Shown: piece after piece, positions 6,000 through 25,923 of the stretch
Numbering within the stretch: position 1 is the first letter of the stretch
How the letters are laid out: every line of letters starts with the position of its first letter
Source of the DNA: Micromonospora violae
GTDB taxonomy: Bacteria; Actinomycetota; Actinomycetes; Mycobacteriales; Micromonosporaceae
Length of the DNA: 64,000 bases
Direction of reading: 5' to 3'
Assembly (NCBI RefSeq): GCF_004217135.1
Contig: NZ_SHKK01000001.1
Coordinates: 2,046,001-2,110,000, forward strand
The notes under the pieces: model-generated
Database searches by the model: none
What the model saw: only the letters and a program-made list of their open reading frames with translations
Told to the model about the DNA's origin: nothing
Position numbers and translations under genes: made by a program

Positions 6000-6048
6000 G
6001 AGGGTGGGTCCTCTTTCTCGGGGTGATCTCCTGGCACGATCGCACACC

Positions 6049-11440: not shown

Positions 11441-11683
11441 GCCGGCCCGGCGACCCGGCCGCCCCACAGCTCCCGCTCGGCGGTCCGCTCCGGACGCACG
11501 CGACGATTCTCATCCGACCAGACCATGGCCGACGACGAACCGTCGTCGCCCCAAAATTCCAGAATAGTCATTCGGGTCGTCGTCCGAACTAATCAAAGGC
11601 GACAGCGCGCCGGTACAATCGGCGACTTCGTTGTGACCGATCGCTGACTGCTGATGATGAAAGCGATCACACACACTGAGCGC

Positions 11684-12469
11684 ATGAACAGGAGAGCCAA
11701 CCGCGGTACGGCACTCCGCGTCGCGGTGTGCCTCCTTCTTCTCGCCGCACTGAGCGGCTGCATGCAACTCAACATGGGGTTGACCGTGAACGCCGACGAC
11801 ACGGTAGACGGGCAACTGCTGCTGACCGCCCAGAAGTCCGTGTTGACCTCCCGGAACAAGAACATCCCGGCGGCCTTCGCGGAGCTGCGACAGAACATCC
11901 CCGCCCTGCCGGCCGGAGAAGAGACCCTTTACCAGGACGACACTTTCTACGGCTCCCAGATCAGCTACCGCAAGGCGCCGCTGGCCGGTTTCGACACCGA
12001 GAGCGTGAAATTGATCAGGGACGGGGACCTGTACCGCTTCACACTGCCGCTCGACCCCAAGAAATACGGCGGAAAGGTTGCGGAACAGAATCCGCAAAAC
12101 CAACAGGCGTTCCTCAAACTCATGTCGTTCGAGATCTCGGTGACCTTTCCCGGCCGGGTCATCGACAGCAATGGCACCGTCAACGGCCGATCGGTCAGTT
12201 GGAAGGTCGACCCGAACCAGGAGAAGCCGGCCGAGCTGCGGGCCGTGGCCGAGGCACCACCTCGACCGTCCACCTCGCCGGCCGCCGCCGGCGATGCGGA
12301 CGATGCCGGGTTCCCCTGGCTGCTGGTCGTCGGCGGTGTCCTCCTCCTGCTGCTGCTCGCCGCGGTCGGCGTACTCCTGCTGCACCGCCGACGTCCCGCG
12401 GCGCCGGCTGCGGCACCCGGCCCGACCCCGCCGCCAGGCCCGCCCGCTGGCGCCCCGGGGCCTGGCTGA
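11684..12469 (+). CDS. LppM-like lipoprotein with C-terminal transmembrane helix
   Basis: About 261 residues. A basic n-region, a hydrophobic stretch and the lipobox 'LAALSGC' near residue 20-26 mark a lipoprotein signal. The mature part ('NMGLTVNADDTVDGQLLLTAQKS' region, then 'SFEISVTFPGRV') resembles the LppM/DUF3153 fold of actinobacteria. Near residues 205-228 a run of Leu/Val forms a membrane helix followed by 'HRRRP' and a Pro/Ala/Gly-rich tail. I prefer ATG 11684 because it gives a standard signal length; ATG 11654 is possible. The 240-bp region upstream is less GC-rich and contains TACAAT at about 11612, a plausible -10 box. It precedes the injection-system genes by 141 bp on the same strand; whether it belongs to them is unclear. 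Confidence 0.72.
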   Translation: MNRRANRGTALRVAVCLLLLAALSGCMQLNMGLTVNADDTVDGQLLLTAQKSVLTSRNKNIPAAFAELRQNIPALPAGEETLYQDDTFYGSQISYRKAPLAGFDTESVKLIRDGDLYRFTLPLDPKKYGGKVAEQNPQNQQAFLKLMSFEISVTFPGRVIDSNGTVNGRSVSWKVDPNQEKPAELRAVAEAPPRPSTSPAAAGDADDAGFPWLLVVGGVLLLLLLAAVGVLLLHRRRPAAPAAAPGPTPPPGPPAGAPGPG

Positions 12470-12610: not shown

Positions 12611-12955
12611 GTGAACGATCTCTACACCTGGGCAGCCCTGGGGAGCATCGCCGGCGCGAGCGCCGCCACCCTGCTGGCCACCAACGTCATCGGCGGGCTG
12701 ATCGGCCCGAGCGGCGACAAGTACCGCAAGTGGATCGCCATCGCGATCGCGCTGCTGCTGTCCTACGTGACGGCGGCGTTCGCCGACGACGCCAGCGGCG
12801 AGAAGTGGGTCATCGCGTTCTTCAACGCGCTCGTCATCTTCTCCGCCGCGCTCGGCATCAACCAGCTCCCGCCCGGCAACCGGCAGGCGACCCAGCCGTC
12901 GCCGACCCAGGTCGCGCAGGGTCGCGAGCCCCGAATCTTCCGCTCCTGGGTCTGA
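12611..12955 (+). CDS. Small membrane protein, first gene of the injection-system cluster
   Basis: 114 residues starting at GTG 12611 with a purine-rich AAAAGGGGGGA site upstream. Three hydrophobic segments can be seen (about residues 8-31, 43-60 and 66-87, the last containing 'FFNALVIFSAALGINQLPPG'), followed by a polar tail. I do not recognise the family. The size and three short helices are holin-like, but that is only resemblance. It lies 11 bp before the next gene and heads the contiguous CIS gene set, so a role in membrane docking or release of the particle is plausible. Between the lipoprotein gene and this start (12470-12610) the DNA is extremely GC-rich with no feature I can name. 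Confidence 0.68.
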   Translation: MNDLYTWAALGSIAGASAATLLATNVIGGLIGPSGDKYRKWIAIAIALLLSYVTAAFADDASGEKWVIAFFNALVIFSAALGINQLPPGNRQATQPSPTQVAQGREPRIFRSWV

Positions 12956-12966
12956 GGGGTGCCGTC

Positions 12967-13575
12967 ATGGTCTTCGGAATTCTCAGCGCGAGCGTTCAGG
13001 TCGGCTTCGGCGCCCTGCTCGGGTTCCTCGTTGGTGGCCCGATCGGCCTGCTGATCGGGGCCGTCGTGGGCCTGGTGGTCGGCGCGGTCTTCGGCTGGTC
13101 GGTGGCCTCCGCCGGGGTGTACGCCGCGGACGCCCGCGGCATCTTCCTCTTCGTCGTCGACCACACCTGGAGTCTGCTCAACACGGTCGTCGGCGCCATC
13201 TACCTGACCGTGCACCTGATCTTCGGGCACTCGCTGGACCGGCCCACGTCGCTGGGCAGCGGTCGGATCTGTGTGGTGGAGGGCGTCTCACCCCGGTACG
13301 CCACCACCATCGGCACCGTCTGCGCCGGCTCCAGCTCGGGCATCCAGCGGCACGAGGACGTGCACATCTTCCAGGGTCGCCTGCTCGGGCCGCTCTACAT
13401 CCCGCTGGTCCTGGCCAACTACGTCCTGTTCACCATCGCGCCGGTGTGGCTGCTCTACCACGACCACACCAACGCGCCGATCAACCGCTTCACCCGGTAC
13501 TTCGAGATCGGCGTCTACCCGCACGTGTGGAACGAGGCCATCGCGTACCGGATCCAGGGGACGCCGCCGCGATGA
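12967..13575 (+). CDS. Glycine-zipper membrane protein with HEDVH (HExxH-type) motif
   Basis: 202 residues. The N-terminal 45 residues are Gly/Val-rich ('GFLVGGPIGLLIGAVVG'), typical of glycine-zipper membrane segments, with further hydrophobic stretches at about residues 58-80 and 137-160. Between them lies 'IQRHEDVHIFQGRLLGPLYIP': an HExxH pattern (His-Glu-Asp-Val-His) preceded by Arg, as in zinc metallopeptidase-like folds. A third zinc ligand cannot be pointed out with confidence. Start ATG 12967; the stop overlaps the next gene by 4 bp (ATGA), implying translational coupling with the cap-like gene. Function unknown; a membrane-bound protease or a structural docking protein of the CIS are both possible. 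Confidence 0.7.
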   Translation: MVFGILSASVQVGFGALLGFLVGGPIGLLIGAVVGLVVGAVFGWSVASAGVYAADARGIFLFVVDHTWSLLNTVVGAIYLTVHLIFGHSLDRPTSLGSGRICVVEGVSPRYATTIGTVCAGSSSGIQRHEDVHIFQGRLLGPLYIPLVLANYVLFTIAPVWLLYHDHTNAPINRFTRYFEIGVYPHVWNEAIAYRIQGTPPR

Positions 13576-14270
13576 ACACCCACGGGCGCGGACCGATCGA
13601 GACGGCCACCGCCGAACTGGTCACCTGGGTGACCCGCTCGGCGGGGGAACCCGTCGGAGTCGGCCCGCCCCGCGCGTGCGACGACGCCGACGGGCTCACC
13701 CTCTGGCCCCTCGAACTGCGCCCGGCCCGGCAGACCCGCTCCAGCGGCGCGGTCCGCGAACCGTACCGGTTCACGGTCCGCCACCTGCTCTGCGTCACCG
13801 GTCCGGCCGGGTTGCCCCGGCTGGACCGGGTGCTCACCGCCGCGACCACCGACGGCAGCTACCCCGTGGTGCTGGAGGCCGGAGACGCCGCACTGTGGAC
13901 GGCGTTCGGCGCGGCACCCCGCCCGGCGCTGCTGATCGACGTGGCGGCGCAGGTGGACCATCCGACTCCGGCCGCACCGCCGGTGTTGCAACCGCTGCGG
14001 TTGCGGCACCTCGACGTGCGCAGCCTCAGTGGACGGGTGGTCGGTCCGCAGGACCAGCCACTGGCCGAGATGCGGGTGGAGCTGCCCGGCACCGGGTCGG
14101 TGGCCCGCACCGACCCCGAGGGTCGGTTCCTGATCGTCGGCGTCCCGCACGACCCCGAGCACCCGGGCCCGGTCCGACTGCGGTTGACCGGACGCGGGCT
14201 CGTCCTCACCGCCGACGTCGACGCGGGCGACGACGACATCGTCATCGTCTGCGCGCCACCGACCCACTGA
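13572..14270 (+). CDS. Pvc16/DUF4255-like CIS protein with carboxypeptidase-regulatory-like domain
   Basis: 232 residues. The first ~140 residues ('EPYRFTVRHLLCVTG', then 'LLIDVAAQV') resemble by layout the DUF4255/Pvc16 N-terminal fold that caps or terminates the tube-sheath stack in extracellular CIS. The last ~80 residues form a beta-sandwich-like module: 'SLSGRVVGPQDQPLAEMRVEL' followed by 'RTDPEGRFLIVGVP', the usual signature of carboxypeptidase-regulatory-like domains. It sits directly before the sheath gene (23-bp gap), the common place for this gene in eCIS loci. The DUF4255 link is moderate confidence; the C-terminal domain is clearer. Confidence 0.6.
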   Translation: MNTHGRGPIETATAELVTWVTRSAGEPVGVGPPRACDDADGLTLWPLELRPARQTRSSGAVREPYRFTVRHLLCVTGPAGLPRLDRVLTAATTDGSYPVVLEAGDAALWTAFGAAPRPALLIDVAAQVDHPTPAAPPVLQPLRLRHLDVRSLSGRVVGPQDQPLAEMRVELPGTGSVARTDPEGRFLIVGVPHDPEHPGPVRLRLTGRGLVLTADVDAGDDDIVIVCAPPTH

Positions 14271-14293
14271 CACCCACCCGCACAGGAGGACCG

Positions 14294-15550
14294 ATGCCCA
14301 GCTACTTCTCCCCCGGCATCTATGTCGAGGAGGTCCCCAGCGGCGCCCGACCGATCGGGCCGGCGAGCACCAGCATCGCCGCCTTCGTCGGCGTCGCCCC
14401 GGACCGCTCCGCCCACCTGGGCAAGGCGGTGCCGGTCAACAACTGGACGGAGTTCCTGCGACTCTTCGCCGCCGGCGAGCGGGTGGAGAGCACCCCGCTG
14501 GCCCGGGCGGTCTTCGGCTTCCTGGACAACGGCGGCGCCCGCTGCTGGGTGGTCAACGTCGGCGAGGGTGGTGCGATCACCGGCACCGGGCAGCGGCGCG
14601 GTGGCCTGCAACTGCTGGAGGCCGTCGACGAGATCTCCATCATCGCCGCGCCCGGCTTCCACGACGTGGTGTCCCACGAGGCGCTGCTCAGCATGGCCGA
14701 GCGCACCCGCACCATGGTCGCGATCTGCGACCCGGCACCGGACATCGACGACATCTCCGCGTTGACCCGGGTCGCCACGCCGTCGTCCGGCAAACCCCCC
14801 AAGCCCACCGAGGGCAGCGGCGGCGGCACGGCCGGTGGCGGGGGCGCGACCCAACCGGGCGGCTCCGGCGGGCACGACGGGCCGGCCTACCGGCCGCGGC
14901 AGTCCGAGTTCGGCGCGTTCTACTACCCCTGGCTGCGGGTACGCGACCCGATCAGCGGCGAGTTGGAACTCACCCCGCCGAGCGGGCACCTGGCCGGCAT
15001 CTGGGCCCGCACCGACGCCCTGCGCGGTGTGCACAAGGCACCGGCCAACGAACCCGTACGCGGTGCCGTCGACCTGGGCTACCTGGTCACCCGGCCGGAA
15101 CACGACGTGCTCAACCCCAAGGGCGTCAACGTGATCCGGTACTTCGCCGGCGAGGGCATCCGCGTCTGGGGCGCCCGTACGCTCGCCGCCGAGGCCAGCG
15201 AGTGGCGCTACCTCAACGTGCGACGCCTCAGCATCGCCATCGAGCAGGCCATCGCCAACGGCACCCGCTGGATGGTGTTCGAGCCCAACGACTTCACCCT
15301 GTGGCGCTCGATCCGGCGCGACATCGGGGCGTTCCTCACCCGGGTGTGGCGCGACGGCGCGCTGCTGGGGCGCAGCCCCGAGGAGGCGTTCTTCGTCAAG
15401 TGCGACGAGGAGACGAACCCGCCGGAGGTCCGCGACGCGGGCATGGTGATCGCCCACATCGGCATCGCGGTCGTCAAGCCCGCCGAATTCGTGGTGTTCA
15501 AGCTGAGCCAGTGGGCCGGCGGCACCGAGACCGAGACGATCGGAGGCTGA
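14294..15550 (+). CDS. Contractile tail sheath protein
   Basis: 418-residue phage-tail-sheath family protein; it forms the outer contractile layer of the injection machine and drives the inner tube on contraction. It opens with the family signature 'YFSPGIYVEEVPSGARPI' and closes with the sheath C-terminal domain, including 'RDIGAFLTRVWRDGALLG' and 'FFVKCDEETNPPE', seen in most sheath proteins. A low-complexity Gly-rich loop (about residues 172-195) interrupts the middle and is probably surface exposed. Strong AGGAGGA ribosome site. One base separates it from the tube gene. Only one sheath gene is present, whereas many eCIS loci have two or three paralogues. Confidence 0.95.
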   Translation: MPSYFSPGIYVEEVPSGARPIGPASTSIAAFVGVAPDRSAHLGKAVPVNNWTEFLRLFAAGERVESTPLARAVFGFLDNGGARCWVVNVGEGGAITGTGQRRGGLQLLEAVDEISIIAAPGFHDVVSHEALLSMAERTRTMVAICDPAPDIDDISALTRVATPSSGKPPKPTEGSGGGTAGGGGATQPGGSGGHDGPAYRPRQSEFGAFYYPWLRVRDPISGELELTPPSGHLAGIWARTDALRGVHKAPANEPVRGAVDLGYLVTRPEHDVLNPKGVNVIRYFAGEGIRVWGARTLAAEASEWRYLNVRRLSIAIEQAIANGTRWMVFEPNDFTLWRSIRRDIGAFLTRVWRDGALLGRSPEEAFFVKCDEETNPPEVRDAGMVIAHIGIAVVKPAEFVVFKLSQWAGGTETETIGG

Positions 15551-15551
15551 C

Positions 15552-16034
15552 ATGCCCACCACCGCCACCCCGCAGCCCGGCGCCCCGGTCGACCCGTACC
15601 GGGCGTACAACTTCCGACTGCTCATCAACGGGGTCACCAACGGCCACTTCACCGAGATGACCGGGTTGGAGGTGAACATCCCCGGGCAGCCGTACCGGGA
15701 GCACGGTCTGGGACGGATGCGGATGGTGCCCGGCCAGGCCGAGTACGAGCCGGTGACGCTGCACTTCGGCCTCACCGCGTCCCGCGAGCTGTGGGACTGG
15801 GTGAACGCCACCGCGCAGGGCACCCTCAACCGGCGCAACGTCTCCGTGGTGCTGCTCGACTCGGTCGGAACGGCTGAGGTGTTGCGCTGGAACCTGATCG
15901 ACGCCTGGCCGACCCGTTGGCGGGGCGCCCACCTCAACACCCTCAGCCACGAGATCGCCATCGCCTCGCTGACCCTGCGCTACGAGGGCCTGGAGCTGGA
16001 GACCGGCGGTGCCACCGCGCCGACACCCGCGTAG
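15552..16034 (+). CDS. CIS/phage tail tube protein
   Basis: 160-residue inner tube protein (T4 gp19-like; Hcp-fold family). It stacks in hexameric rings to form the channel through which cargo passes. Seen in sequence: 'YRAYNFRLLINGVTNGHFTEM' at the start (shown in outline), 'GLEVNIPGQPYREHG', 'LHFGLTASRELWDWVN', 'NVSVVLLDSVG' and 'ALRYEGLELETGG'-like ending, all in family order and at family length. It follows the sheath gene by one base and overlaps the next gene by 26 bp. A single tube gene is present. Confidence 0.94.
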   Translation: MPTTATPQPGAPVDPYRAYNFRLLINGVTNGHFTEMTGLEVNIPGQPYREHGLGRMRMVPGQAEYEPVTLHFGLTASRELWDWVNATAQGTLNRRNVSVVLLDSVGTAEVLRWNLIDAWPTRWRGAHLNTLSHEIAIASLTLRYEGLELETGGATAPTPA

Positions 16035-17277
16035 CTGGCTGGCGGGCCGGCTGCGCTCGGCGGCCGGGGCGCTGCAACGCCTCGCCGGGCGGGTCGAGCC
16101 CGCCGCGCACCGCCCGCCGCCGCTGCCGGAGCAGACGCCGGTGGCGACACCGCGCCGTTTCGGGGCGCCTCCGCAGCACTGGCTGGACCTGGTCGCCGCG
16201 CACGCGCCCGGTCTGCTGCACGACCTGGAGCTCGACGCCTCCCGGGGCGGCAACGTCGAGGCCGGTGCCGGCGACGGTGGGCACGGCGAGTCGTCGGGTC
16301 CTGTCGACGCCGCGTCCCCGGTCGCGGACGGCGGGTTCGGTAGGCCGGGTCGCCCGTCGCGCTCCGCCGACCAGCCCGACGGTACGCAGAGCAGGGTCGT
16401 GAGCCCGTCCGGCGGCGGGCCGGCGTCCCACTCCGACACGTCCACCCGGCCGGACGTGACAACCTCGCCGGGCGGGCCGGCGGGACCGGACGCGGTGCCT
16501 CCGGTACGACCGGCGAACCGGGGCACCACCACGGCGGTCGACGCGAGCAGGCCAGCGCGATCGGACGGGCCCCCGCGGCCGGTCCCCTCGATGGTCGTCA
16601 GGCCGCACCATGCGCCGAGCGGCCACCCCCACCCGCCGGAGGCCGTACCGGCCCGAAGCACCCCACCCCCGCCCCTGGACGCACCCTGGTCCGGCGCGGT
16701 CGGCCACGGTCACCGACGGTCCACGGGCTCGTCCCCCGCACGATCCACCGCCGAGGAACGCTCGCGTGGTCGCGACGGGGTCCGGGCCGAGGCGGACCGC
16801 CCGCCCCGGGAGGATCAGCACGGGTACGCGGCCGACCGGCCGGACGACGCGCCGAGCGCGGGCCGGTCGACGCGGGTCGACGCGGTGCCGGCCGGTGTGC
16901 CGGCGCACCTGCGGCTGGCCTGGCCGAACCCGGTCGGGGTCGACGCATCCTGGATCGGGCCCACCGCCCCGGGTGGCGGGCGCACACCGACCATCGGGCG
17001 CGAGCACCCGGCGGGGGTCGTGGACGGTGGGCCCTGGCTGGCCCTGCCCGGCGAACCGGTACCACCCGGACCATCGGGCGCGCTGCCCGACGGCGGGGCG
17101 AGAACGCTCGGCCGCCACCGCGCGACGGGCGTCGACGGGCCGCCGCCCACCGTGGCGGCGGGCGGCGTCGATCCGTGGCCGGCGCTGCCCGACGACAGCG
17201 CGCTGTGGTCGGTGACCAGCGCGGCGCTGGACACCGACCAGCTGACCCGGCTGGACCGGGAACAGGCGGGTGACTGA
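16009..17277 (+). CDS. Proline-rich, largely disordered protein between tube and hub genes
   Basis: About 422 residues from GTG 16009, which overlaps the tube gene; the exact start is uncertain. An N-terminal basic helix ('WLAGRLRSAAGALQRLAGRV') is followed by 'PQHWLDLVAAHAPGLLHDLEL', then some 200 residues dominated by Pro, Gly, Asp, Ser and Arg with no predicted fold. The last 150 residues contain two short conserved-looking blocks, 'VPAHLRLAWPNPVGVDASW' and 'DDSALWSVTSAALDTDQL'. I do not recognise it. Its position between tube and LysM-type hub, and the lack of any other candidate, make a tape-measure or assembly-scaffold role conceivable, but the composition is unlike usual coiled-coil tape measures. 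The TGA overlaps the next ATG by one base. Confidence 0.65.
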   Translation: MPPRRHPRSWLAGRLRSAAGALQRLAGRVEPAAHRPPPLPEQTPVATPRRFGAPPQHWLDLVAAHAPGLLHDLELDASRGGNVEAGAGDGGHGESSGPVDAASPVADGGFGRPGRPSRSADQPDGTQSRVVSPSGGGPASHSDTSTRPDVTTSPGGPAGPDAVPPVRPANRGTTTAVDASRPARSDGPPRPVPSMVVRPHHAPSGHPHPPEAVPARSTPPPPLDAPWSGAVGHGHRRSTGSSPARSTAEERSRGRDGVRAEADRPPREDQHGYAADRPDDAPSAGRSTRVDAVPAGVPAHLRLAWPNPVGVDASWIGPTAPGGGRTPTIGREHPAGVVDGGPWLALPGEPVPPGPSGALPDGGARTLGRHRATGVDGPPPTVAAGGVDPWPALPDDSALWSVTSAALDTDQLTRLDREQAGD

Positions 17278-18170
17278 TGGAACGCGTCGCCTTCCTCATC
17301 GACTCCTCGGGCGTTCGGGTGGACTGCCTGCTCAACCCGGAGACCGTGCAGGTGACCCGGCTCGCCGGCGTCCGCCAGCGGGGTGCCGGCGGTGGGCAGC
17401 TCACCGGGTCCGGCCTGGCCGACGACCCGCTGGTCTTCACCGGCGGCGGCCGTACCGAGTTGGTGCTCGACCTGCTCTTCGACGTCGACTTCGTGGAGGC
17501 GCAGCTGCGCCCGGCCGACGTTCGGGTGCTCACCCGCCCGCTGTGGATGCTGGCGGAGAACTCGACCGCGGAGCACGGTTGGCTGCGACCGCCACTGGTC
17601 CGGTTGGTCTGGGGCAAGACCTGGAACGTGCCCGGCGTGATCATCGCGGTGGCGGAACGCTTCGACGCGTTCACCGGCACCGGGTCGCCCCGACGGTCCT
17701 GGCTGCGACTCAAGCTGGTCCGCGCCGCCGAAACGGCCGATCAGGCCGAGGCCGGCTTCGCCGAGGAGTTGGCCGCCGCGAGCACCCCGACCGCCGCGCC
17801 GGGCAGCGCGGTGATCGCCGCCGGTGACGGCGCGGCCGAGCCGGGACGTTCCGGGGTGCGTTTCGACCTGCTCGCCAACGACGCGCTCGGCTCGCCGCTG
17901 CGCTGGCGGCTGCTGGCCGAACACAACCGGATCACCGATCCGCTCGCCGTACCGGCCGGCACCACCCTCGCCGTCCCACCGACCGCTCCCGGCGGATCGA
18001 CCGTCGGCGGGTCGGTGACCGGGCTGGCTCGGACGGTGGCCGACGCGGTGGGCGCGGGCGCGTCGTACCTGGGCGCGGCGATCGCCGGCGCGCCCGGGTC
18101 GTGGGGCGCCACCACCGGCCCGGCCGGCGCAGGACCGGACGGGCCCGGCAACCCCGGAGGTACGCCATGA
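17277..18170 (+). CDS. CIS tube-initiator / LysM-like hub protein (CIS_tube domain)
   Basis: 297 residues. The N-terminal ~150 residues match the CIS_tube/Pvc7-type domain: 'CLLNPETVQVTRLAGVRQRG', then 'LDLLFDVDFVE' and 'VVWGKTW'-like 'LVWGKTWNVPGVI', followed by 'RSWLRLKLVRA'. A linker leads to a LysM-like segment near residues 205-240 ('RWRLLAEHNRITDPLAVPAGTTLAVP'), which in this family helps link the tube to the spike hub. A Gly/Ala-rich tail closes the protein. It overlaps the spike gene by 4 bp, consistent with co-translation of hub parts. Confidence 0.85.
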   Translation: MERVAFLIDSSGVRVDCLLNPETVQVTRLAGVRQRGAGGGQLTGSGLADDPLVFTGGGRTELVLDLLFDVDFVEAQLRPADVRVLTRPLWMLAENSTAEHGWLRPPLVRLVWGKTWNVPGVIIAVAERFDAFTGTGSPRRSWLRLKLVRAAETADQAEAGFAEELAAASTPTAAPGSAVIAAGDGAAEPGRSGVRFDLLANDALGSPLRWRLLAEHNRITDPLAVPAGTTLAVPPTAPGGSTVGGSVTGLARTVADAVGAGASYLGAAIAGAPGSWGATTGPAGAGPDGPGNPGGTP

Positions 18171-19759
18171 CCAGCATCGCGCCCCGGGCGTTGACCGTTC
18201 TGCTCGACGGCGTCGAGGTGGTCGGCGCGGCCCGTCAACGAATCCGCTCACTGCGGGTGGCGGCCCGCCTCGACCAGCCCACCCAGGCGGAGTTGGTGCT
18301 CGCCACCACCGCGGGGGCCGGCGCGTTCGACCCGGCGGTACGCCCCGGCACGACCCTCGACGTACGGCTGACCGACCAGGCGGACGCCCTGTTCACCGGT
18401 GAGGTCACCTGCGTGGAGGTGGAGTACGCCCCCGACGGGGCGGCGGTCCTGCGGCTGCGCGCGTACGACCCGCTGCACCGGCTGCGCAAGCGGCAGGGGT
18501 TGCGGGTCTTCACCTCGGTGACCGCCGTCGAGCTGGCCCGGGAGCTGTGCGGCGCGGCGGGGCTGACGGTGACGGCGGAGGACGACGGCCCTCGGCTGGA
18601 GCGGCTGCTCCAGCACCGGCACAGCGACCTGGAGTTGCTGCGTGAGGTGGCCGGCCGGGCCGGGCTCCACCTGGCCGCCGACGGCGACGGCGTCCGGCTG
18701 GTAACGCTCGCCGGTTACGGGGAGCCGATCGCGATGACGCTGGGCAAGCAGGTGCACCGCCTGCGGCTGTCCACCAACACCGACCAGGCCAGTGGGGCCA
18801 GCGCCGCCCTGGGTTGGCACCCGCAGCGGGCCGAGGTGATCAGCCAGCAGGTCGACGAGGCGCGCTGCGGTCGACCCGCCGACGACCGCCCCGACCCGGC
18901 CGACGTGGGTGCCGACGGCGTGCGCACCGTGGTGGACCAGCCCGGCCGCAGTGACGACGAGTTGGCGGCGCTGGCCCAGGCCCGACTGGACACCCGGGCG
19001 GCGGCGCTGGTCACGGCCGAGGGGGTGGCCGAGGGCGATCCGGCGCTACGACCGGGCCGCCGCGTCGACCTCGGCGGGGTGCCCGACCCGGTCGCCGGGG
19101 CGTACGTGCTGACCGAGGTGGTGCACACCGTGGACGGTGACGGGCACCTGACCCGCTTCTCCACGGTCCCGCCAGCCACGCCCGCGCCGCCGACCGGCGG
19201 CGCGGTGGTCACCCTCGGCACCGTCACCGACGTCGCGGACCCCGACGGGCTGGGCCGCGTCCGGTTGACCCTGCCGGCGTACGGGGACCTGGACGCCGGT
19301 TGGCTCGCCGTGCTCTGCCCCGGTGCCGGGCCGGGCAAGGGTCTGGTGGCGCTCCCCGATCCGGACGACACCGTGCTGGTGGTGCTACCCGGCGGCGAAC
19401 CGGCCTCGGGCATCGTGCTCGGTTCGCTGTTCGGCACCGTCGAGCCGTACGACGCGGGCATCGACGACGGCAAGGCCCGCCGCTGGACGATGCGCACCGC
19501 CGGCGGACAGTCGATCGTCGTCGACGACGTGCGCCGCAGCCTCCGGCTGGCCACCGAGGGCGGCAGCTTCCTGGAGTTGACCCCCGACCTGGCCACCCTG
19601 CACGCGGCGTCCGACCTGGTGATCTCCGCACCCGGGCGGGCGATGGTGGTGCGCGCCCGCAGCGTGGACTTCCTGCACGCCGTAGCGACCGAGGACCCGA
19701 CCACCGCGGCGGAGCAGGCCCGAACGCCTGCCCGCGCCCACCACGAAGGAGGCGGCTGA
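18167..19759 (+). CDS. VgrG-like spike / phage late control D protein
   Basis: 530 residues. The central spike of the baseplate: an N-terminal gpD/gp27-like beta-barrel region ('RIRSLRVAARLDQPTQAELVL', 'VRLRAYDPLHRLRKRQG'-type segment) followed at about residues 345-430 by the gp5 OB-fold ('LGTVTDVADPDGLGRVRLTL', 'GWLAVLCPGAGPGKGL', 'GIVLGSLFG'). A short beta-prism-like C-terminus follows. Preceded by GGAGG, start ATG 18167. It pairs with the small tip protein encoded immediately downstream (1-bp overlap). It is expected to be carried on the tube end and to pierce the target membrane or cell wall. Confidence 0.92.
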   Translation: MTSIAPRALTVLLDGVEVVGAARQRIRSLRVAARLDQPTQAELVLATTAGAGAFDPAVRPGTTLDVRLTDQADALFTGEVTCVEVEYAPDGAAVLRLRAYDPLHRLRKRQGLRVFTSVTAVELARELCGAAGLTVTAEDDGPRLERLLQHRHSDLELLREVAGRAGLHLAADGDGVRLVTLAGYGEPIAMTLGKQVHRLRLSTNTDQASGASAALGWHPQRAEVISQQVDEARCGRPADDRPDPADVGADGVRTVVDQPGRSDDELAALAQARLDTRAAALVTAEGVAEGDPALRPGRRVDLGGVPDPVAGAYVLTEVVHTVDGDGHLTRFSTVPPATPAPPTGGAVVTLGTVTDVADPDGLGRVRLTLPAYGDLDAGWLAVLCPGAGPGKGLVALPDPDDTVLVVLPGGEPASGIVLGSLFGTVEPYDAGIDDGKARRWTMRTAGGQSIVVDDVRRSLRLATEGGSFLELTPDLATLHAASDLVISAPGRAMVVRARSVDFLHAVATEDPTTAAEQARTPARAHHEGGG

Positions 19760-20097
19760 TGCGCTGGATCCACCGGGACTCGGTGATCACCTGCGATCAC
19801 GACGGCCGGGTCGAGAACCGACCGTCGCGGCAGTGGGTGAGCGTCACCGGGGTGCCCGTGCTCGTCGACGACGACCCGGAGGGACGAAAGATCGTCGCCT
19901 GCCCGAACTACGGCCCCACCATCAAGCCGTGCACGACGACGCTGACCGTGCGGGTCGGCTACAGCGACTGGATCCGCGTCGACGGGCACCGGGTGGTGCT
20001 GTCGCACCTGGAGGGGTTCACCAACGGCACACCGCCGGGGCTGGTCAAGCACACGGTGCGCGACCCCGCTCAGGGGTTCCTGGGGGCGGACCGATGA
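19759..20097 (+). CDS. PAAR-like spike tip protein
   Basis: 112 residues encoded directly after the spike gene, the normal place of the PAAR-type tip in eCIS clusters. Short beta-strands with 'SVITCDHDGRV', 'RKIVACPNYGPTIKPCTT' and 'VDGHRVVLSHLEGFTNG' can be seen. Three Cys residues and several His could hold a metal ion, as at the apex of other tips. The canonical Pro-Ala-Ala-Arg repeats are not obvious, so I infer the role mainly from position, size and Cys/His pattern. ATG 19759 follows AAGGAGG; the end overlaps the gp25 gene by 4 bp. Confidence 0.72.
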   Translation: MRWIHRDSVITCDHDGRVENRPSRQWVSVTGVPVLVDDDPEGRKIVACPNYGPTIKPCTTTLTVRVGYSDWIRVDGHRVVLSHLEGFTNGTPPGLVKHTVRDPAQGFLGADR

Positions 20098-20528
20098 GGG
20101 CCTTCCGCTTCGTCGGCGCCGGCTTCGACGCCGGTCGTAGCGGCGGGTTGGCGCTCACCGCGGCCGGCGGCCTGGCGATGACCGAGGGCGACGAGAGCGT
20201 ACGGCAGGCGCTGTTCCTGCTCCTGTCGACCACACCGGGCGAGCGGTTGATGCGACCCGGGTACGGGTCCCGGCTGCACCGGTTGGTCTTCGCCCCCAAC
20301 GACGACACCACGGCCGGTCTGGCCATCCACTACGTCCGGCAGGCCATCGCGCGGTGGGAGCCCCGGGTCGAGGTGATCGACACCGACGCCGGGCCGGACC
20401 CGGACGACGCGTGGCGGTTGGTGATCCGGTTGGACTACCGGGTGCAAGCCAGCCTGACACCCGGGCAACTGGTCTTCTCCGTTGACCTGCTCCCGGCCGA
20501 CGAGCCCGCCCAGGGAGGAGCGTCATGA
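20094..20528 (+). CDS. Baseplate wedge protein, GPW/gp25 family
   Basis: 144 residues of the T4 gp25-like lysozyme-related family that starts sheath assembly at the baseplate. The family core is visible: 'GDESVRQALFLLLSTTPGER', then 'MRPGYGSRLHRLVFAPND' and the 'RWEPRVEV' helix-strand. It overlaps both neighbours by 4 bp in ATGA junctions, so it is translationally coupled to the tip and baseplate J genes. An N-terminal extension with 'GGLALTAAGGLAMTEG' precedes the core, as in eCIS members. Confidence 0.93.
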   Translation: MRAFRFVGAGFDAGRSGGLALTAAGGLAMTEGDESVRQALFLLLSTTPGERLMRPGYGSRLHRLVFAPNDDTTAGLAIHYVRQAIARWEPRVEVIDTDAGPDPDDAWRLVIRLDYRVQASLTPGQLVFSVDLLPADEPAQGGAS

Positions 20529-23191
20529 CGCTGCCCGTGCCGCATCTGGACGATCGCGGCTTCCTCGACCTGGTCACCGAGGCCCGGGAGCGGATCCGGC
20601 AGTCCTGCCCGGCGTGGACCGACCTGTCGGCGCACGACCCGGGCATGGCGTTGGTGGAGACGTTCGCGCACCTCACCGAGGTGATGATCTACCGGTTGAA
20701 CCAGTTGCCGGAGAAGGCGTACGTCTCGTTCCTGAACCTGCTCGGGGTCACCCGGCACGCACCGACCGCGGCCTGGGCGGACGTCCGGTTCACCCGCACC
20801 GGCACCGACCGTGCGGCGGTGCGGATCCCGGCCGGGCTACGGGTCGCGGCGGCCCGCGGCGCGGACCCCCGGCCGGTCGTGTTCGTCACCACCGAACCGA
20901 CGCTGCTGCCCGCCGACGAGACGTCGGTGACGGTACGGATGCACCACTGCGAACCGGTCGAGGCGGAGCTGCTCGGTGTCGGCACCGGCCAGCCCGGGCA
21001 GGTGCTGCGCGCGGCGCACGCGCCCCTGACGCACACGGCCGAGGCGCTGGACCTGCTGCTCGGCGTGGAGGTGCCGGCCGGCACTGTGGAGCTGGGCGCG
21101 GCGGCCCGCGAGCACGACGGTCGCACGTTCGAGATCTGGCAACCGGTGGACAGCTTCGCCGGGCTCGGCCCGCAGGCCAAGGCGTACCTGGTCGACCGTT
21201 GCTCGGGCACTGTCATCTTCGCCCCGGCCCTCGATCTGCGACCGGCCGCCGGGGCGACGCCGGTGGCCGAGGCCGCGCCGGCCGGGTCGACGCCGGTGAC
21301 CGTCGCGGCGGTGCCGCCGGCCGGGCGGCAGGTCCGGCTCTGGTACCGCGCCGGCGGCGGGCCCACCGGCAACGTGGCGGCGGGCACGCTGACCAGTCTG
21401 CGTGACCCGCTACCCGGGGTACGCGTCGACAACCCCGCCCCGGCGGCCGGCGGCCGGGACATGGAGGCGCTGGAATCGGTACTGCTGCGCGGCCCGTACG
21501 AGTTCTTCGCCCAGCAGCGCGCGGTCACCGCCCGCGACTTCGAGGTCCTCGCGACCAGTTCCGGGGCGGTGGCGCGGGCGCGGGCGTTCACCCGCGCGGC
21601 GGTGTACAGCTTCGCCCGACCGGGCGAGGTTGAGGTGGTGCTGGTGCCGTACGTGCCGGAGGCGGCCCGGCCAGGTGGTCGGCTGCCGGTGGCGGTGCTG
21701 CGCGAGCACGAGGTGCCCGAGGCGCGCCACCGGGTCGAGGCGGACCTGGAGGAACGCCGGATGGTCGGTATCCGCTCCCGGGCCACCTGGGCCCGGTTCA
21801 AGGCGGTGTCGGTACGCGCCCGGGTGGTGGTGCGCCGCGAGGAGGACGTGGACGCGGTCCGTCGCCGCATCCACGACCGGCTGCACCAGACGTTGAGCCC
21901 GCTGCCCACCGCGCTCAACCCAACCGGTTGGCCGTTCGGGGAGCCACTGCGGGCGTCCAACGTGTACCGGCTGCTGGAGCACGCCGAGCCGGGGGTGCGC
22001 TACGTCGAGTCGGTGCGGTTCGTGGTCGACGAGGCCCCCGACGCCGACGTCCGTGCCCTCGCCGTGGACCAGTACCAGCCGCGCACCTGGTATGCCGGGC
22101 GCGGTCCGGTGCTGTTCCGCTCCAGCAACGGCGGCGCGGGTTGGGAACCGGCCGGTCGCTTCGACGACGAGACGGTGCTGCGGGTCGCGCCCGCGCCCGC
22201 TCCGGTGCGGCCGGGCATCGTCGCGCGGGCCGGCTCGGTGGCCGTGGTGACGCTGCGCGCCTCGGGCGGCTCCCGGGTGCACCTGAGCACCGACCTGGGT
22301 GAGACCTGGTCGCTGCTCACCGACCTGGATTCGCGGATCTCCGACGTGGCCTGGCTGGACCGCGACGGCGCGGGCGCGCTGCTGGTGGCCACCGACACCG
22401 GCCTGTACGAGGTGTCGCTGCTGCCCGGGGCGGTGCCGTTGCAGATCCTGGTCGACCCGTCCGACGCCGACCGGGGCTTCTACGCGGTCCGCACGTTCGT
22501 CTCCGAGCGGGGCGCGCCGGGTGTGGCGGTGGCCGCCCAGGCCAGCTTCGGGGTGTACCTGTCGACCAGCGGCGGTCGGCCCGGCAGCTTCACCCACGTC
22601 GGTCTCGCCAACGTGGACAACCGGGTCCTCGCGGTGCAGTACGACGGCCCGGCCACGCTGCTGTGGAGCGGCGCCGGTGAGCCGGACCCGAGGAAGCCCG
22701 GCCAGGGCTGCCACCGCACCCGACTGTTCGAGTCGGACGTGAAGTGGCAGTCGATGCAGTCCGGGTGGCTCGGCGGCACCTGCCGGGACCTCGCCTTCGC
22801 CGGTCAGCAGGCGGTGGCGGCCACGCAGAGCGGCGGGGTGCTGCGGTTGGACACCCTGGCCGCGCAACCACAGTGGCAGGCGGTGTCGGTCAACTGCGGG
22901 TTGCCGTTGCGGGACCGGACCCGGTTCGTGCCGGTCGACGCGATCGCGGTGAGCGGCCCGACGGCCGGCGGCGCTACCGGCGGGGGCGCGACCGGCGGCA
23001 GCGGCGCGGCGGAACGGCTCATCCTGGCCAGCGGCGAACGCGGCGTGCACCGCAGCGCCGACGCGGTCACCTGGACGCCCAGCGCCAACCAGGCCACCGC
23101 CGACGTGGTGACAGTCCCCGACACCTGGCTGCTCTGCTCCGGCGAGCACGACATCGAGGTGGTGCGCCAGGATGCGACGCTCGGCGATTGA
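20525..23191 (+). CDS. Baseplate J-like assembly protein with C-terminal beta-propeller-like extension
   Basis: 888 residues. The first ~530 form the baseplate wedge protein: N-terminal 'CPAWTDLSAHDPGMALVETFAHLTEVMIYRLNQLP' in outline (residues ~25-60), and the baseplate J core around residues 330-470 with 'TARDFEVLATSSGAVARARA'. From about residue 525 to the end, blocks with Asp-box-like turns follow: 'SSNGGAGW', 'STDLGETWS', 'STSGGRPGS', 'SADAVTWTP', spaced 50-110 residues apart as in sialidase/BNR beta-propellers. A Gly/Ala/Thr-rich loop near residue 815 interrupts the last blade. The propeller is unusual for this protein and could bind glycans, the cell wall or the membrane-anchored partner downstream. 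Overlaps gp25 by 4 bp and the next gene by 20 bp. Confidence 0.88.
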   Translation: MTLPVPHLDDRGFLDLVTEARERIRQSCPAWTDLSAHDPGMALVETFAHLTEVMIYRLNQLPEKAYVSFLNLLGVTRHAPTAAWADVRFTRTGTDRAAVRIPAGLRVAAARGADPRPVVFVTTEPTLLPADETSVTVRMHHCEPVEAELLGVGTGQPGQVLRAAHAPLTHTAEALDLLLGVEVPAGTVELGAAAREHDGRTFEIWQPVDSFAGLGPQAKAYLVDRCSGTVIFAPALDLRPAAGATPVAEAAPAGSTPVTVAAVPPAGRQVRLWYRAGGGPTGNVAAGTLTSLRDPLPGVRVDNPAPAAGGRDMEALESVLLRGPYEFFAQQRAVTARDFEVLATSSGAVARARAFTRAAVYSFARPGEVEVVLVPYVPEAARPGGRLPVAVLREHEVPEARHRVEADLEERRMVGIRSRATWARFKAVSVRARVVVRREEDVDAVRRRIHDRLHQTLSPLPTALNPTGWPFGEPLRASNVYRLLEHAEPGVRYVESVRFVVDEAPDADVRALAVDQYQPRTWYAGRGPVLFRSSNGGAGWEPAGRFDDETVLRVAPAPAPVRPGIVARAGSVAVVTLRASGGSRVHLSTDLGETWSLLTDLDSRISDVAWLDRDGAGALLVATDTGLYEVSLLPGAVPLQILVDPSDADRGFYAVRTFVSERGAPGVAVAAQASFGVYLSTSGGRPGSFTHVGLANVDNRVLAVQYDGPATLLWSGAGEPDPRKPGQGCHRTRLFESDVKWQSMQSGWLGGTCRDLAFAGQQAVAATQSGGVLRLDTLAAQPQWQAVSVNCGLPLRDRTRFVPVDAIAVSGPTAGGATGGGATGGSGAAERLILASGERGVHRSADAVTWTPSANQATADVVTVPDTWLLCSGEHDIEVVRQDATLGD

Positions 23192-23687
23192 GCGGCTGCT
23201 GCCCGCCGCCTACCAACGGGCCTGCGTGCCGGGCAGCGTGCTCTGGGCGCTGCTCGACGTGATGGAGGGGTTGCACGCCCCGGACGAGGCGATCCTCGCC
23301 GAGGTCGACGCGCTGTTCGACCCGTACCGGGCACCGGACGGGCTGGTGGTGCGGTTGACCCGCTGGGTGGCGATGGACCACGTGGTGGCCTCGCCCCGGC
23401 CGGACGCCCCGCTGCCGCTGCCGGTGGGTCGGCTGCGGGACCTGGTGGCCAACGCCGCCCTGCTGGCCCGGTGGCGCGGCACCCCGTACGGGATCCGTCG
23501 GGCCCTGGAGCTGGCCACCGGGACGTCGGGCTTCACCATCGACGAACCCGCCGAGCAGCCCTTCCACGTCGTGGTGCGGGTGCCGGCCGCCGCCGCCGAC
23601 CAGCTCCCCGTGATCACCCGCATCGTCGAGGCGGAGAAGCCCGCCTCGGCCACCGTCGAGATCGTCCTGGAAGAGGAGCCGTCATGA
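23172..23687 (+). CDS. Phage tail protein I-like baseplate protein
   Basis: 171 residues resembling the tail protein I / Pvc12-type family found after baseplate J genes. The typical opening 'IERLLPAAYQRACVPGSVLW' leads to a helical block ('LLDVMEGLHAPDEAILAEVD'), then 'RWRGTPYGIRRALELATG', a strong family signature, and a C-terminal strand region ending 'SATVEIVLEEEPS'. It starts inside the previous gene (20-bp overlap) and overlaps the next by 4 bp. It completes the baseplate set; no separate tail-fibre gene follows. Confidence 0.88.
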   Translation: MRRSAIERLLPAAYQRACVPGSVLWALLDVMEGLHAPDEAILAEVDALFDPYRAPDGLVVRLTRWVAMDHVVASPRPDAPLPLPVGRLRDLVANAALLARWRGTPYGIRRALELATGTSGFTIDEPAEQPFHVVVRVPAAAADQLPVITRIVEAEKPASATVEIVLEEEPS

Positions 23688-24613
23688 CCACCGAGTGGGC
23701 GGTCGTCGCCGCCGCCGAGCAGTTCACCCTCGACCCGCGCAACAGCGGCGAGCTGACCTTCACCGTCTCCAATCCGGGCAACGCGCCGGACACTGTGGTG
23801 TTCGACGTGGCGCCCGGCGACGGCTCCCAGCGGGGGTGGTTCACCGTCACCGAGCCCCAACGGGTGGTGCCCGGCCAGGGTTCGGTGTCGTTCCTGGTCA
23901 AGCTCGCCGTACCGGCCGGCACCCCGCCCCGGCGCTACGACATGACCGGGTTCGCGTACTCGGCGAACACCGCGCCGGAGGAGAGCTCCCGCTCCAGCGG
24001 CCGGGTCACGTACGAGGTGCGGGCGGTCGCGCCGCCACGGCGTACCCCGTGGTTGTGGATCGCCGCCGCGGCGGCGCTGGTGCTGGTGGTGGTGACCGTG
24101 GGGGTGGTGTTGCTGACCCGCGGCGGCGAGCCGACCCCCGGAGAGCCGCGGGTGGTCACCGTCGAGGCGGAGAGCCTGGTGTCGGGTGCCGTGGTGGAGT
24201 CGCCGAGCAAGAGCGCGGCGAAGGTGGAGGAGCAACCCAACTGCTGCGGGGTGGTCTGGTCCGGCGACAAGCAGTTGTTCTTCCAGGGGCTGGCCATCGG
24301 TGACAAGGTCACCGTGACGGTGCAGATCCCGGCCGACGGCACCTGGCGTTTCGCCGCGGTCCGCACCACCTCCTTCGACTACGCCAACACCGTCTTCACG
24401 ATCGACGGCAACCAGGTCGGCGGCACGTTCCTCGGCTTCAGCCCGACGGTGCGCACGACGGAGTTGCTGGACGTCGGCTCGGTCCAGCTCAGCAAGGGCC
24501 CGCACCAGGTCACCCTGCTGGTGGTCGGCAAGACGCAGGGCACGAACCGCTACTTCGCGGGCATCGACGAGATCCGGTTCACCGAGATCGTGGCGCAGGC
24601 CGTGGCGCGATGA
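23684..24613 (+). CDS. Bitopic membrane protein: Ig-like domain, one TM, carbohydrate-binding-like domain (CisA-like layout)
   Basis: 309 residues without a signal peptide. Residues 1-115 form an Ig-like beta-sandwich ('NSGELTFTVSNPGNAPDTVV', 'VVPGQGSVSFLVKLAVPAGT'), residues ~123-145 a single membrane helix preceded by 'PPRRTP', and residues ~157-305 a CBM6/galactose-binding-like domain that opens with 'VVTVEAESLVSG' and ends 'YFAGIDEIRF'. Positive charges before the helix favour N-in/C-out: the Ig-like domain would face the cytoplasm and the CBM-like domain the cell wall. Streptomyces CIS use a bitopic protein, CisA, with a CBM-like outer domain to dock cytoplasmic particles at the membrane. 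The layout and position here suggest the same job; homology is not shown. Confidence 0.72.
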   Translation: MTTEWAVVAAAEQFTLDPRNSGELTFTVSNPGNAPDTVVFDVAPGDGSQRGWFTVTEPQRVVPGQGSVSFLVKLAVPAGTPPRRYDMTGFAYSANTAPEESSRSSGRVTYEVRAVAPPRRTPWLWIAAAAALVLVVVTVGVVLLTRGGEPTPGEPRVVTVEAESLVSGAVVESPSKSAAKVEEQPNCCGVVWSGDKQLFFQGLAIGDKVTVTVQIPADGTWRFAAVRTTSFDYANTVFTIDGNQVGGTFLGFSPTVRTTELLDVGSVQLSKGPHQVTLLVVGKTQGTNRYFAGIDEIRFTEIVAQAVAR

Positions 24614-25071
24614 GCGGTGGGCAGAAGGCACTGCTGGGTTTGCTCGCCGTCCTGCTGGTGGCGGTGTTCGTGGTGGCGGTCGGCGTGGGCCGTGACGACC
24701 AGGGCGATCCGGGGGCCCGACCCGGGTTCATCGACCGGTTGGGCGCGCTGGCCGGCGAACGGTCCGCTGTCGATCCGGCGACGGTCAGCGCGGACTGCGC
24801 CGACGAGACAGGCCGGCTGGAGTTCTCGGGCACCTGCCGGCTGCGGGTCGCCGACCCCGGTGCGCTGCGCACCCTGGTGCTGCGCAGCGCGACGCGGTTC
24901 ACGGTCGTCGCCCCGGCGCCCGGCGACGCCGACCTCACCATCCGCGACGAAGTCGAGCCAGCGGCGGACGGCACCGGCGCGGTGGCGAAGATCGCCGTCG
25001 ACCAGGCCACCGAAGTGGGCCTGGTCTGCCCCGGCCTGGGCAGCTGCACGGTCGTCGTGGCCACCACCTGA
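24610..25071 (+). CDS. Membrane-anchored secreted protein of unknown function in the CIS cluster
   Basis: 153 residues. An N-terminal hydrophobic segment (about residues 7-26, 'ALLGLLAVLLVAVFVVAVGV') is either a signal anchor or an uncleaved signal; the rest is predicted outside. The outer part has two pairs of Cys ('SADCADE' with 'FSGTCRL', and 'LVCPGLGSCTV') that could form disulphides, and alternating strand-like segments such as 'LRTLVLRSATRFTVVAP'. I do not recognise the family. It overlaps the CBM-like protein gene by 4 bp, so the two are probably made together and may interact outside the membrane. In its own frame, 22 further codons follow the TGA before another stop (see repeat at 25075). 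Confidence 0.65.
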   Translation: MSGGQKALLGLLAVLLVAVFVVAVGVGRDDQGDPGARPGFIDRLGALAGERSAVDPATVSADCADETGRLEFSGTCRLRVADPGALRTLVLRSATRFTVVAPAPGDADLTIRDEVEPAADGTGAVAKIAVDQATEVGLVCPGLGSCTVVVATT

Positions 25072-25074
25072 GCC

Positions 25075-25140
25075 GACCTGGAGTGGATCGTCGTGACCCA
25101 CGACCTGGACTGGATCGTCGTGACCCACGACCTGGACTGA
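25075..25140 (+). repeat. 27-bp tandem repeat, 2.4 copies
   Basis: Two 27-bp units (25075-25101 and 25102-25128) differ at one base, followed by a 12-base partial unit ending in TGA at 25138-25140. The unit length is a multiple of three, and the array stays open in the frame of the gene that ends just before it at 25071. The repeated codons would read D-L-E/D-W-I-V-V-T-H. The array lies between two genes of the CIS cluster, directly before the ribosome site of the next gene. Confidence 0.85.
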
Positions 25141-25155
25141 GAGGAAGGTGCCGCC

Positions 25156-25923
25156 GTGGGTGACCTGCGCAAGCCGTTCCTGCTGATGGCCATGCTCGCC
25201 ATCGTCCTGGCGATCGGGGTGGAGCTGGGTGCCGGATTGCTGCTCGGCGGTGCCGACGCCGGTGCGGCCCTCGCGGACAGCGCCGGCGCGCTCGACGTGG
25301 AGATCGACGACGTCTCCGGGGTGAGCGAGCCGTCCGGCCGGGGCACCGGCTACCTGGCGTTGATCGACGCCGTGGCGGTCTGGAGCACCGGGCTGTTCTG
25401 CCTGGGTCTGTTGCTGCCCGAGCGCGTCCAGGGTCGGATGCAGGGCGTCGCCAGCCTGATCTTCTCGATCATCCTGATCATCGTCGGGCTGATCGCGCTG
25501 GTCGTCGCGTTCGTCGAGCTGATGATCATGGTGTCGCTCTTCCTGGCCGTGCCGTTCGGCACCCTGGCGTACCTGGCGCTGTGGGGGTTCTTCCCGGTCG
25601 GTGAGGCGGCGGTGCTGCTCGGCCTGGTGCTGCTGCTCAAGCTGGTGTGGGCCGGGATGCTGGTGCTGGCCCAGCCGCGGTTCCTGCAGAACAAGGGCCT
25701 CGTCCTGCTGATCCTCACCACTCTGCTGTGCACGGTCGTGCTGGAGTTCCTGCACAACCTGGTGCCGGTGATCCTGGTCAGCATCGTCGACGACGTGGCG
25801 GCGCTGGTCTTCGCGATCATCGCGATCATCTGGGGCCTGGTACTGCTCATCGGCTCGATCCCGGCGATCGTCAAGGCCATCCGGGTCACCGCCGCCCTGC
25901 CAGCCCGAGCCGCGTCCCGTTGA
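25156..25923 (+). CDS. Polytopic membrane protein, last gene of the CIS cluster
   Basis: 255 residues from GTG 25156 with GAGGAAGG upstream. About six hydrophobic segments: an N-terminal one ('LLMAMLAIVLAIGVELGAGL'), a soluble Asp/Gly/Ser-rich loop at residues ~30-65, then five strongly hydrophobic helices ('VASLIFSIILIIVGLIALVV' among them). The C-terminus is basic. I do not recognise the family. It may help anchor or gate the injection particle, or it may simply be the end of the operon. Its last 38 bp overlap the end of the convergent DUF6807 gene, so no terminator separates the two loci. Confidence 0.68.
   Translation: MGDLRKPFLLMAMLAIVLAIGVELGAGLLLGGADAGAALADSAGALDVEIDDVSGVSEPSGRGTGYLALIDAVAVWSTGLFCLGLLLPERVQGRMQGVASLIFSIILIIVGLIALVVAFVELMIMVSLFLAVPFGTLAYLALWGFFPVGEAAVLLGLVLLLKLVWAGMLVLAQPRFLQNKGLVLLILTTLLCTVVLEFLHNLVPVILVSIVDDVAALVFAIIAIIWGLVLLIGSIPAIVKAIRVTAALPARAASR

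Follow-up and report, generated by a model that had tools for sequence, protein, structure and literature searches.

A compact contractile injection system locus in Micromonospora violae with no recognised Pvc15-type ATPase and a candidate membrane adaptor

Within a 64,000-nt stretch of Micromonospora violae contig NZ_SHKK01000001.1 (the window, whose coordinates are used below), positions 12611-25923 hold a compact contractile injection system (CIS) locus of 15 genes, all on the (+) strand. The set comprises a tail-terminator cap, one sheath, one tube, a proline-rich protein, a LysM hub, a VgrG spike, a PAAR-like tip, gp25, a baseplate J protein to which a BNR-type propeller is fused, a tail I protein, and five predicted membrane proteins. 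The locus is conserved among relatives, and no AAA+ ATPase of the Pvc15 type was recognised in it. We think it reasonably probable, if well short of certain, that this is a complete CIS of the actinobacterial kind, cut to a single-copy core, which would be assembled in the cytoplasm, docked by the membrane protein g14, and fired outward. The genes, with one upstream neighbour, are as follows.

11654..12469, +, LppM-domain lipoprotein (PF21946), upstream of the set; neighbour kept in Micromonospora loci, membership uncertain
12611..12955, +, g2, 114 aa, three predicted membrane spans; not core, here only in Micromonospora loci
12967..13575, +, g3, 202 aa membrane protein and putative metallopeptidase, glycine-zipper-like start, HExxHxxQ; not core
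13572..14270, +, tail terminator/cap, Cis16; Pvc16 fold at residues 8-136, C-terminal transthyretin-like domain at 148-232
14294..15550, +, single sheath, 418 aa; PF04984, PF17482
15552..16034, +, single tube, 160 aa; PF06841, E 5.9e-31
16009..17277, +, g7, proline-rich, 422 aa, between tube and hub; no family match
17277..18170, +, CIS_tube/LysM hub, Cis7 type; PF19266, weak match to 9gtp_P (E 0.0024)
18167..19759, +, VgrG-like spike, Cis8 type, 530 aa; PF05954, PF04717
19759..20097, +, PAAR-like tip, 112 aa; no family match, conserved Cys/His positions
20094..20528, +, gp25-like sheath initiator, Cis9 type; PF04965
20525..23191, +, baseplate J, Cis11 type, with fused C-terminal BNR-type beta-propeller (~500-888); PF04865, TIGR02243
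23172..23687, +, tail I protein; PF09684
23684..24613, +, g14, single-span membrane adaptor candidate: inner Ig-like domain, span, outer domain resembling carbohydrate-binding modules (CBM6/35/84-like); CisA-like position
24610..25071, +, g15, 153 aa, predicted N-terminal membrane anchor
25156..25923, +, g16, 255 aa, predicted multi-span membrane protein

Family, fold and membrane predictions confirmed the 15-gene inventory that a first-pass annotation of this DNA had proposed. Sheath, tube, hub, spike, gp25, J and tail terminator lie in one operon without head genes, as in CIS generally, and family scans that included PHROGs recognised no capsid, portal or terminase family among the 15 products; relatives on viral contigs numbered 15, the best of them 43% identical to a distant query. 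PF17482 detects one sheath gene in the host genome. The J protein scored above the cut-off of TIGR02243, gave a sialidase-like match under the cut-off in NCBIfam, and matched the structures 9gtp_1K and 3b7f. A PDB sequence search with the cap returned mainly partial scaffoldin matches, and its identity was settled by fold comparison, the list from which is mixed with transthyretin-like domains owing to the C-terminal part of the protein. For the tip, the same kind of search gave nothing useful on a PAAR identity, and no family match was found in Pfam, PHROGs or NCBIfam; C, H, C and C positions are retained across 13 aligned loci.

Conservation was examined at increasing taxonomic distance. In the first search for relatives, which covered 61 genomes and in which compact and larger types were assigned by reading the rows, 34 genomes gave a sheath match: 21 had the compact type (all in the same genus) and 15 the larger type, two having both. 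Gene order was kept in the 16 compact loci fetched from this search, with g3 not found in one (L053) and two loci cut by contig ends. In a sample of the family, 88 of 300 genomes, belonging to 7 of 44 genera, matched the compact sheath at E <= 1e-120. At class level, some sheath match was seen in 65 of the 394 genomes sampled and, among the matches listed, a full-length, one-piece match occurred only in the window's genome and one congener. Three of 396 genomes in the phylum sample matched at E <= 1e-110, namely the window's genome and two from other classes (G846 and G985), both of which carry the locus, without a frame bearing Walker A and B motifs in 20 kb.

We then compared 32 loci: the window, 16 congeners, 13 stretches spread over seven genera of the family (one congener included), and the loci of G846 and G985. 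Seventeen of these are the window or loci used in training the profiles and 15 are independent, and in two (L054 and L055) the sequence runs out within the locus. Cap, sheath, tube, hub, spike, tip, gp25 and J were each found once in all 32; the single sheath and single tube noted for the window are thus seen in every locus compared. Tail I and g14 were each present in 31, g15 in 30 and g16 in 29 loci; g15 and g16 are absent from one locus (L128) in its 20 kb, and the other gaps fall in two loci at contig ends. Because g2, g3 and the upstream LppM gene were present in only 18, 19 and 17 loci, respectively, we do not count them as core, and of the five membrane proteins that the first-pass annotation had assigned to the system, g14, g15 and g16 belong to the set, with g2 and g3 outside its core. 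All 15 reading frames are intact. Ratios of nonsynonymous to synonymous substitution (dN/dS) against two congeners were 0-0.43 for every gene except g7 (0.85 and 0.95), and by these measures the locus is conserved and under purifying selection. One locus (L051:5096-6469, genome G022) has ~1.4 kb of extra DNA between tail I and g14.

No Walker A motif occurs in any frame of at least 100 aa between 9 and 30 kb of the window, ruling out a P-loop protein concealed in the locus. PF22977 had no match in the window's genome. The sensitivity of this family is incomplete, as it detects the ATPase in 12 of 15 larger-sheath genomes, and for that reason a second, Pvc15 profile was built from six ATPases of the PF22977 + PF00004 type. 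At least 28 PF00004 matches were found in the host genome (150 of 265 candidates were scored), yielding 22 AAA loci for examination. The Pvc15 profile gave 451-828 bits on 13 Pvc15-type genes, one of which is a training row and some of which are cut by stretch ends, compared with at most 72 bits on the 22 host loci, and an orphan Pvc15 gene was rejected for these. The PF22977 + PF00004 combination of an extracellular CIS (eCIS) with a Pvc15-type ATPase was therefore seen neither in the locus nor in the genome as searched. An ATPase does occur in other CIS loci from this genus and order, and the three checked combine PF22977 (winged helix) with PF00004.

The relatives gave the same picture. No Walker A+B frame was found in the fetched stretches of the 31 further compact loci, on which the Pvc15 profile scored nothing above 5.8 bits, and the profile found nothing at E <= 1e-3 in 56 named loci (L139-L194). 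PF22977 was sought in 77 of 90 compact-bearing genomes; 66 had none, and in the 11 that had it the compact sheath was on a different contig or 370 kb or more away. The lack of an AAA+ ATPase noted by the first-pass annotation thus held in the window and beyond it, and three of the checks it had proposed gave matching outcomes: (i) profile scans of the products recognised no tape measure or ATPase, (ii) the eight core genes recur in every one of the 32 loci, with no scanned compact locus having an ATPase, and (iii) the genome-wide search for an orphan Pvc15 found none, 72 bits being the best score among the 22 AAA loci. In the literature searched, as far as its accessible text goes, we met with no account of an actinobacterial CIS lineage that is free of the ATPase, and the Chen 2019 classification may list one without comment.

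The sheath tree contained 36 rows (13 compact and 23 others, the ATPase state being seen for part of the 23) and is unrooted. All 13 compact sheaths fall on one side of a branch with support of 99/96, and this group joins the two-sheath row L208 at 100/99, where L208 and three other rows sit on long branches and exact placement is unsure. Because the nearest and outer tree groups include ATPase-bearing loci, a single ancient loss of the ATPase, before the compact lineage spread, would be the simplest history, and the compact set may be "derivative" in this older, ancestral-loss sense. A recent deletion derivative of a standard eCIS, the outcome that would have undercut the first-pass annotation, is rejected by the conservation and dN/dS values, and no scanned compact locus has an ATPase. 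Treating the two-sheath loci of G157 and G298 as ATPase-free proved wrong: in G157 a PF22977 gene is found 17-19 kb downstream of the sheath, making absence within 20 kb a weak test and the whole-genome test a stronger one.

The gene g14, directly 3' of the baseplate genes, encodes the candidate for attachment to the envelope. When the window protein and ten relatives were aligned, the inner ~115 residues and the single span were alike, and in 9 of these 11 rows the span was immediately preceded by at least two basic residues; under the positive-inside rule, this would place the N-terminus inside the cell. In structure comparison, the outer domain of the window protein resembled MiXBM (7ehg; TM-score 0.8 on the target, 24-25% identity). 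Among nine g14-type proteins scanned with Pfam, seven carry PASTA (one of them also LamG) and the other two neither. Outer domains of the CBM-like, PASTA and LamG kinds bind wall or sugar polymers. One locus (L196:16528-19314 and 5006-6043) holds several g14-type genes with the same inner domain, PASTA outer parts and, in one case, LamG. 

An inner-domain profile found no g14 relative at E <= 1e-3 in 30 larger-type stretches; a weak match in larger loci (E 0.003, or 8e-4 in a smaller set) was to a secreted von Willebrand A/Ig-type protein, which we took to be unrelated. This profile was partly trained on non-Micromonospora loci for which it is reported, and independent detection of g14 outside Micromonospora comes from a Micromonospora-only profile, whose weakest E-values were 8e-6 (L195) and 1.3e-5 (L196). 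In position and single-span layout g14 is like CisA, a likeness judged without the CisA sequence. According to the accessible part of the published report, S. coelicolor cisA is a membrane protein gene at the same position and is needed for firing (PMC12237407). The membrane docking suggested by the first-pass annotation is a matter of interpretation, in which the g14 architecture and its cisA-like position lead us to favour docking to the cell's own envelope through g14. The same annotation's suggestion of a short particle found no support in these data.

Among relatives (n = 34), g7 ranges from 380 to 575 aa, start codons having been picked by script, and has a proline-rich middle of variable length between two conserved ends: a start motif like HWL..V..HAPGLL, which a strict pattern detected in 15 of the 32 loci and did not detect in any of 26 larger-type stretches, and a C-terminal end like WP.LPD ... 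LDREQ. In gene order its place is that of pvc6 by the numbering of the Photorhabdus virulence cassette (PVC), and in phages that of the tape measure. It is the sole positional candidate for a conventional tape measure, a role that we rejected, the protein being proline-rich, without a predicted span or family match; a function as an unstructured ruler is speculative. The accessible text on pvc6 describes it as a spike plug (PMC12210884). Scans of the products (all 15 in Pfam and PHROGs, ten in NCBIfam) matched none of them to a tape-measure, fibre or lysis family, though fast-evolving proteins could escape such scans. The first-pass annotation was right that no tape measure is recognisable and mistaken in its premise that Streptomyces systems normally have one, since absence of a tape measure has been published for S. 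coelicolor and S. venezuelae, in the parts of these papers available (PMC10066040, PMC12237407). Tape-measure-like effectors in actinobacterial CIS, one of them from Micromonospora eburnea, are tied to an SLP-like nanomachine in the accessible part of another study (PMC13277306).

Under the reading that we prefer, the particle would be assembled in the cytoplasm without AAA+-driven loading and retained in the cell, since none of the 15 genes was recognised as encoding a fibre or a lysis protein. The inner Ig-like domain of g14 would recruit the baseplate to the cytoplasmic side of the plasma membrane, with the outer domain gripping wall glycans of the same cell and the J propeller possibly helping to dock. 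Contraction would then push tube and spike outward across the membrane. Payload, if any, would be borne by the spike, tip, hub or g7, or loaded during assembly, and puncture alone might be the function. PVC particles assemble without Pvc15, yet without payload, in the accessible account (PMC11495950), which makes a particle without the ATPase possible. Its docking, firing and cargo we infer. More tentatively, and with doubt prevailing, we postulate an ancient CIS lineage without AAA+ ATPase or folded tape measure, docked inside its own envelope by modular single-span adaptors whose conserved inner domain would bind the baseplate and whose interchangeable outer domains (CBM, PASTA, LamG) would bind the wall; g7, at the position of tape measure or plug, would be an unstructured ruler, a plug or a payload.

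Several observations weigh against the retained, g14-docked particle. Three of the 15 larger-sheath genomes, those in which PF22977 did not detect the ATPase, are G012 (L060, L233, L234), G025 (L229, L231, L232) and G050 (L230, L235). In the stretches fetched around their larger, multi-tube loci with baseplate genes, neither Pvc15 nor a Walker A+B frame was found, although a second locus of G012 does hold a Pvc15-type gene. Given these controls, ATPase absence probably arose elsewhere too, and we rejected ATPase loss as unique to the compact lineage; the ATPase-free set called unusual by the first-pass annotation is conserved, but not one of a kind. The same larger loci are also without g14-g16, and hence ATPase absence alone does not imply docking of this sort. 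Generic cellular AAA proteins could stand in for Pvc15. In a second compact copy in genome G488 (L128:15140-16939), a 600-codon eCIS_core (PF13699) frame comes after g14, where g15 and g16 would otherwise be; G488 also holds PF22977 elsewhere in its genome. This gene is probably a CIS effector, with cargo probably carried there, and some compact members may thus carry cargo. Finally, the topology of g14 was derived from hydropathy and charge, and its model is of middling confidence, with a mean pLDDT of 74.7 and a pTM of 0.52.

Some of these observations suit an eCIS-like particle that is released, with another cellular AAA+ protein loading its cargo and Pvc15 missing only as a neighbour. The genome has its 28 or more PF00004 matches, an eCIS_core gene stands beside one relative locus, and PVC loading requires Pvc15, as the available text has it (PMC11495950). 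We nonetheless consider a released particle rather unlikely, as none of the 22 AAA loci resembles Pvc15, no tail fibre was recognised, and g14-g16 belong to the set. Slightly less credit goes to a device for self-lysis, triggered by development or stress, that would resemble the S. coelicolor CIS with fewer parts; this is a sub-case of the docked particle and does not exclude it. Its hosts are filamentous and sporulating, and the position of g14 is cisA-like. Further, the S. coelicolor CIS mediates cell death and requires CisA in the published account, as far as accessible (PMC12237407); the inner part of the published CisA is disordered and its outer domain solute-binding-like, unlike g14.

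An R-type tailocin-like killer freed by lysis, for which an ATPase was never needed, would fit the small single-sheath, single-tube set. Tailocins carry lysis genes as well as, in the accessible part of one source, a tape measure and tail fibres (PMC12210884), none of which was recognised among the 15 products in the scans described above, which can miss such genes, and the sheath is far nearer to Streptomyces-type CIS than to pyocin (E 1e-126 against 5e-14); we regard this explanation as improbable. Least credible of all is a decaying remnant of a standard eCIS after ATPase loss. ATPase-bearing loci in the outer and nearest tree groups do make an ancestral loss likely, but the frames are all intact, dN/dS is 0-0.43 except in g7, and the set is kept over seven genera and two genomes of other classes.

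In the Photorhabdus system, by the accessible text, the Pvc15 AAA+ ATPase loads the payload (PMC11495950), and a lineage that is conserved and selected without this enzyme raises the question of what is delivered and how loading would occur, or whether the function is puncture alone. With a single inner domain coupled to exchangeable domains that would bind the wall, the system would offer a genetic handle on envelope docking, testable in culturable Micromonospora, and, if the proposal is true, g14 would widen the case of CisA into a modular adaptor family. Having a sheath of 418 aa and only one tube, this is a small actinobacterial CIS for structure work.

Two observations concern the membrane proteins at the ends of the set. 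The HExxHxxQ motif of g3 is kept in eight rows above the inclusion threshold, one from another class, its relatives including L196:15905-16570, and g3 is possibly a membrane metallopeptidase; its assignment to DUF4157 was rejected, there being the HExxH pattern alone without a Pfam match. For g16, 798 homologues were found; among the 120 listed, none has a Pfam domain, and the names include hypothetical, membrane protein and putative permease. A DUF6807 gene (25886-27307, -) overlaps the 3' end of g16 and lies at a variable distance in some congeners.

Compared with known systems, the locus departs from a type VI secretion system (T6SS), which has a two-part TssB/TssC sheath, a TssJLM membrane complex and ClpV, in having a one-protein, phage-type sheath and no Walker A motif, and no T6SS membrane family was found in g2, g3 or g14-g16. 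With the eCIS of the Afp (antifeeding prophage)/PVC kind it shares the cap, sheath, tube, LysM hub, VgrG, gp25 and J, and g7 has the position of pvc6; it differs in having one sheath rather than three and no second tube, Afp13 fibre, Afp14 tape measure or Afp15/Pvc15 that could be recognised. The thylakoid CIS of Anabaena (tCIS; 7b5h, 7b5i) is anchored by a baseplate extension, whereas for the compact locus a separate membrane protein is proposed. The two-sheath actinomycete CIS (G157 and G298; L208, L210, L211, L228) are nearest to the compact sheaths in the tree and their tubes score between both types (124-128 bits), but they have two sheaths, two tubes and a longer J, with the ATPase downstream in G157 and on another contig in G298.

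The closest likeness is to the S. coelicolor CIS (CISSc, eCIS class IId). The solved structures nearest to the sheath are 8bky/9gtp (E 1e-126) and 8bl4/9gts (E 3.3e-124), the one closest to J is 9gtp_1K, and the cap shares the fold of 9gts, tied with other CIS caps. By its title, 9gts is from S. coelicolor; 8bky and 9gtp we take to be the S. coelicolor CIS, the organism of 8bl4 likewise being assumed. An ATPase is a defining trait of class IId. Sheath and J are most CISSc-like, as judged by solved structures rather than dbeCIS references, and the two tubes (Cis1a, Cis1b) and ATPase of the class are replaced by one tube in all 32 loci and no Pvc15. According to the accessible published text, CISSc is without a tape measure and tail fibre, neither of which was recognised here, and has a membrane protein gene straight after the baseplate genes; the host is Gram-positive in both cases. 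The absence of an AAA+ ATPase distinguishes the compact locus from related larger actinomycete loci with one, a comparison of which the S. coelicolor locus was not part. Relative to CISSc itself, the compact locus has one tube instead of two and a sheath of 418 aa instead of 534-539, and it adds the propeller fused to J, the PAAR-like tip, and the g14-g16 membrane set.

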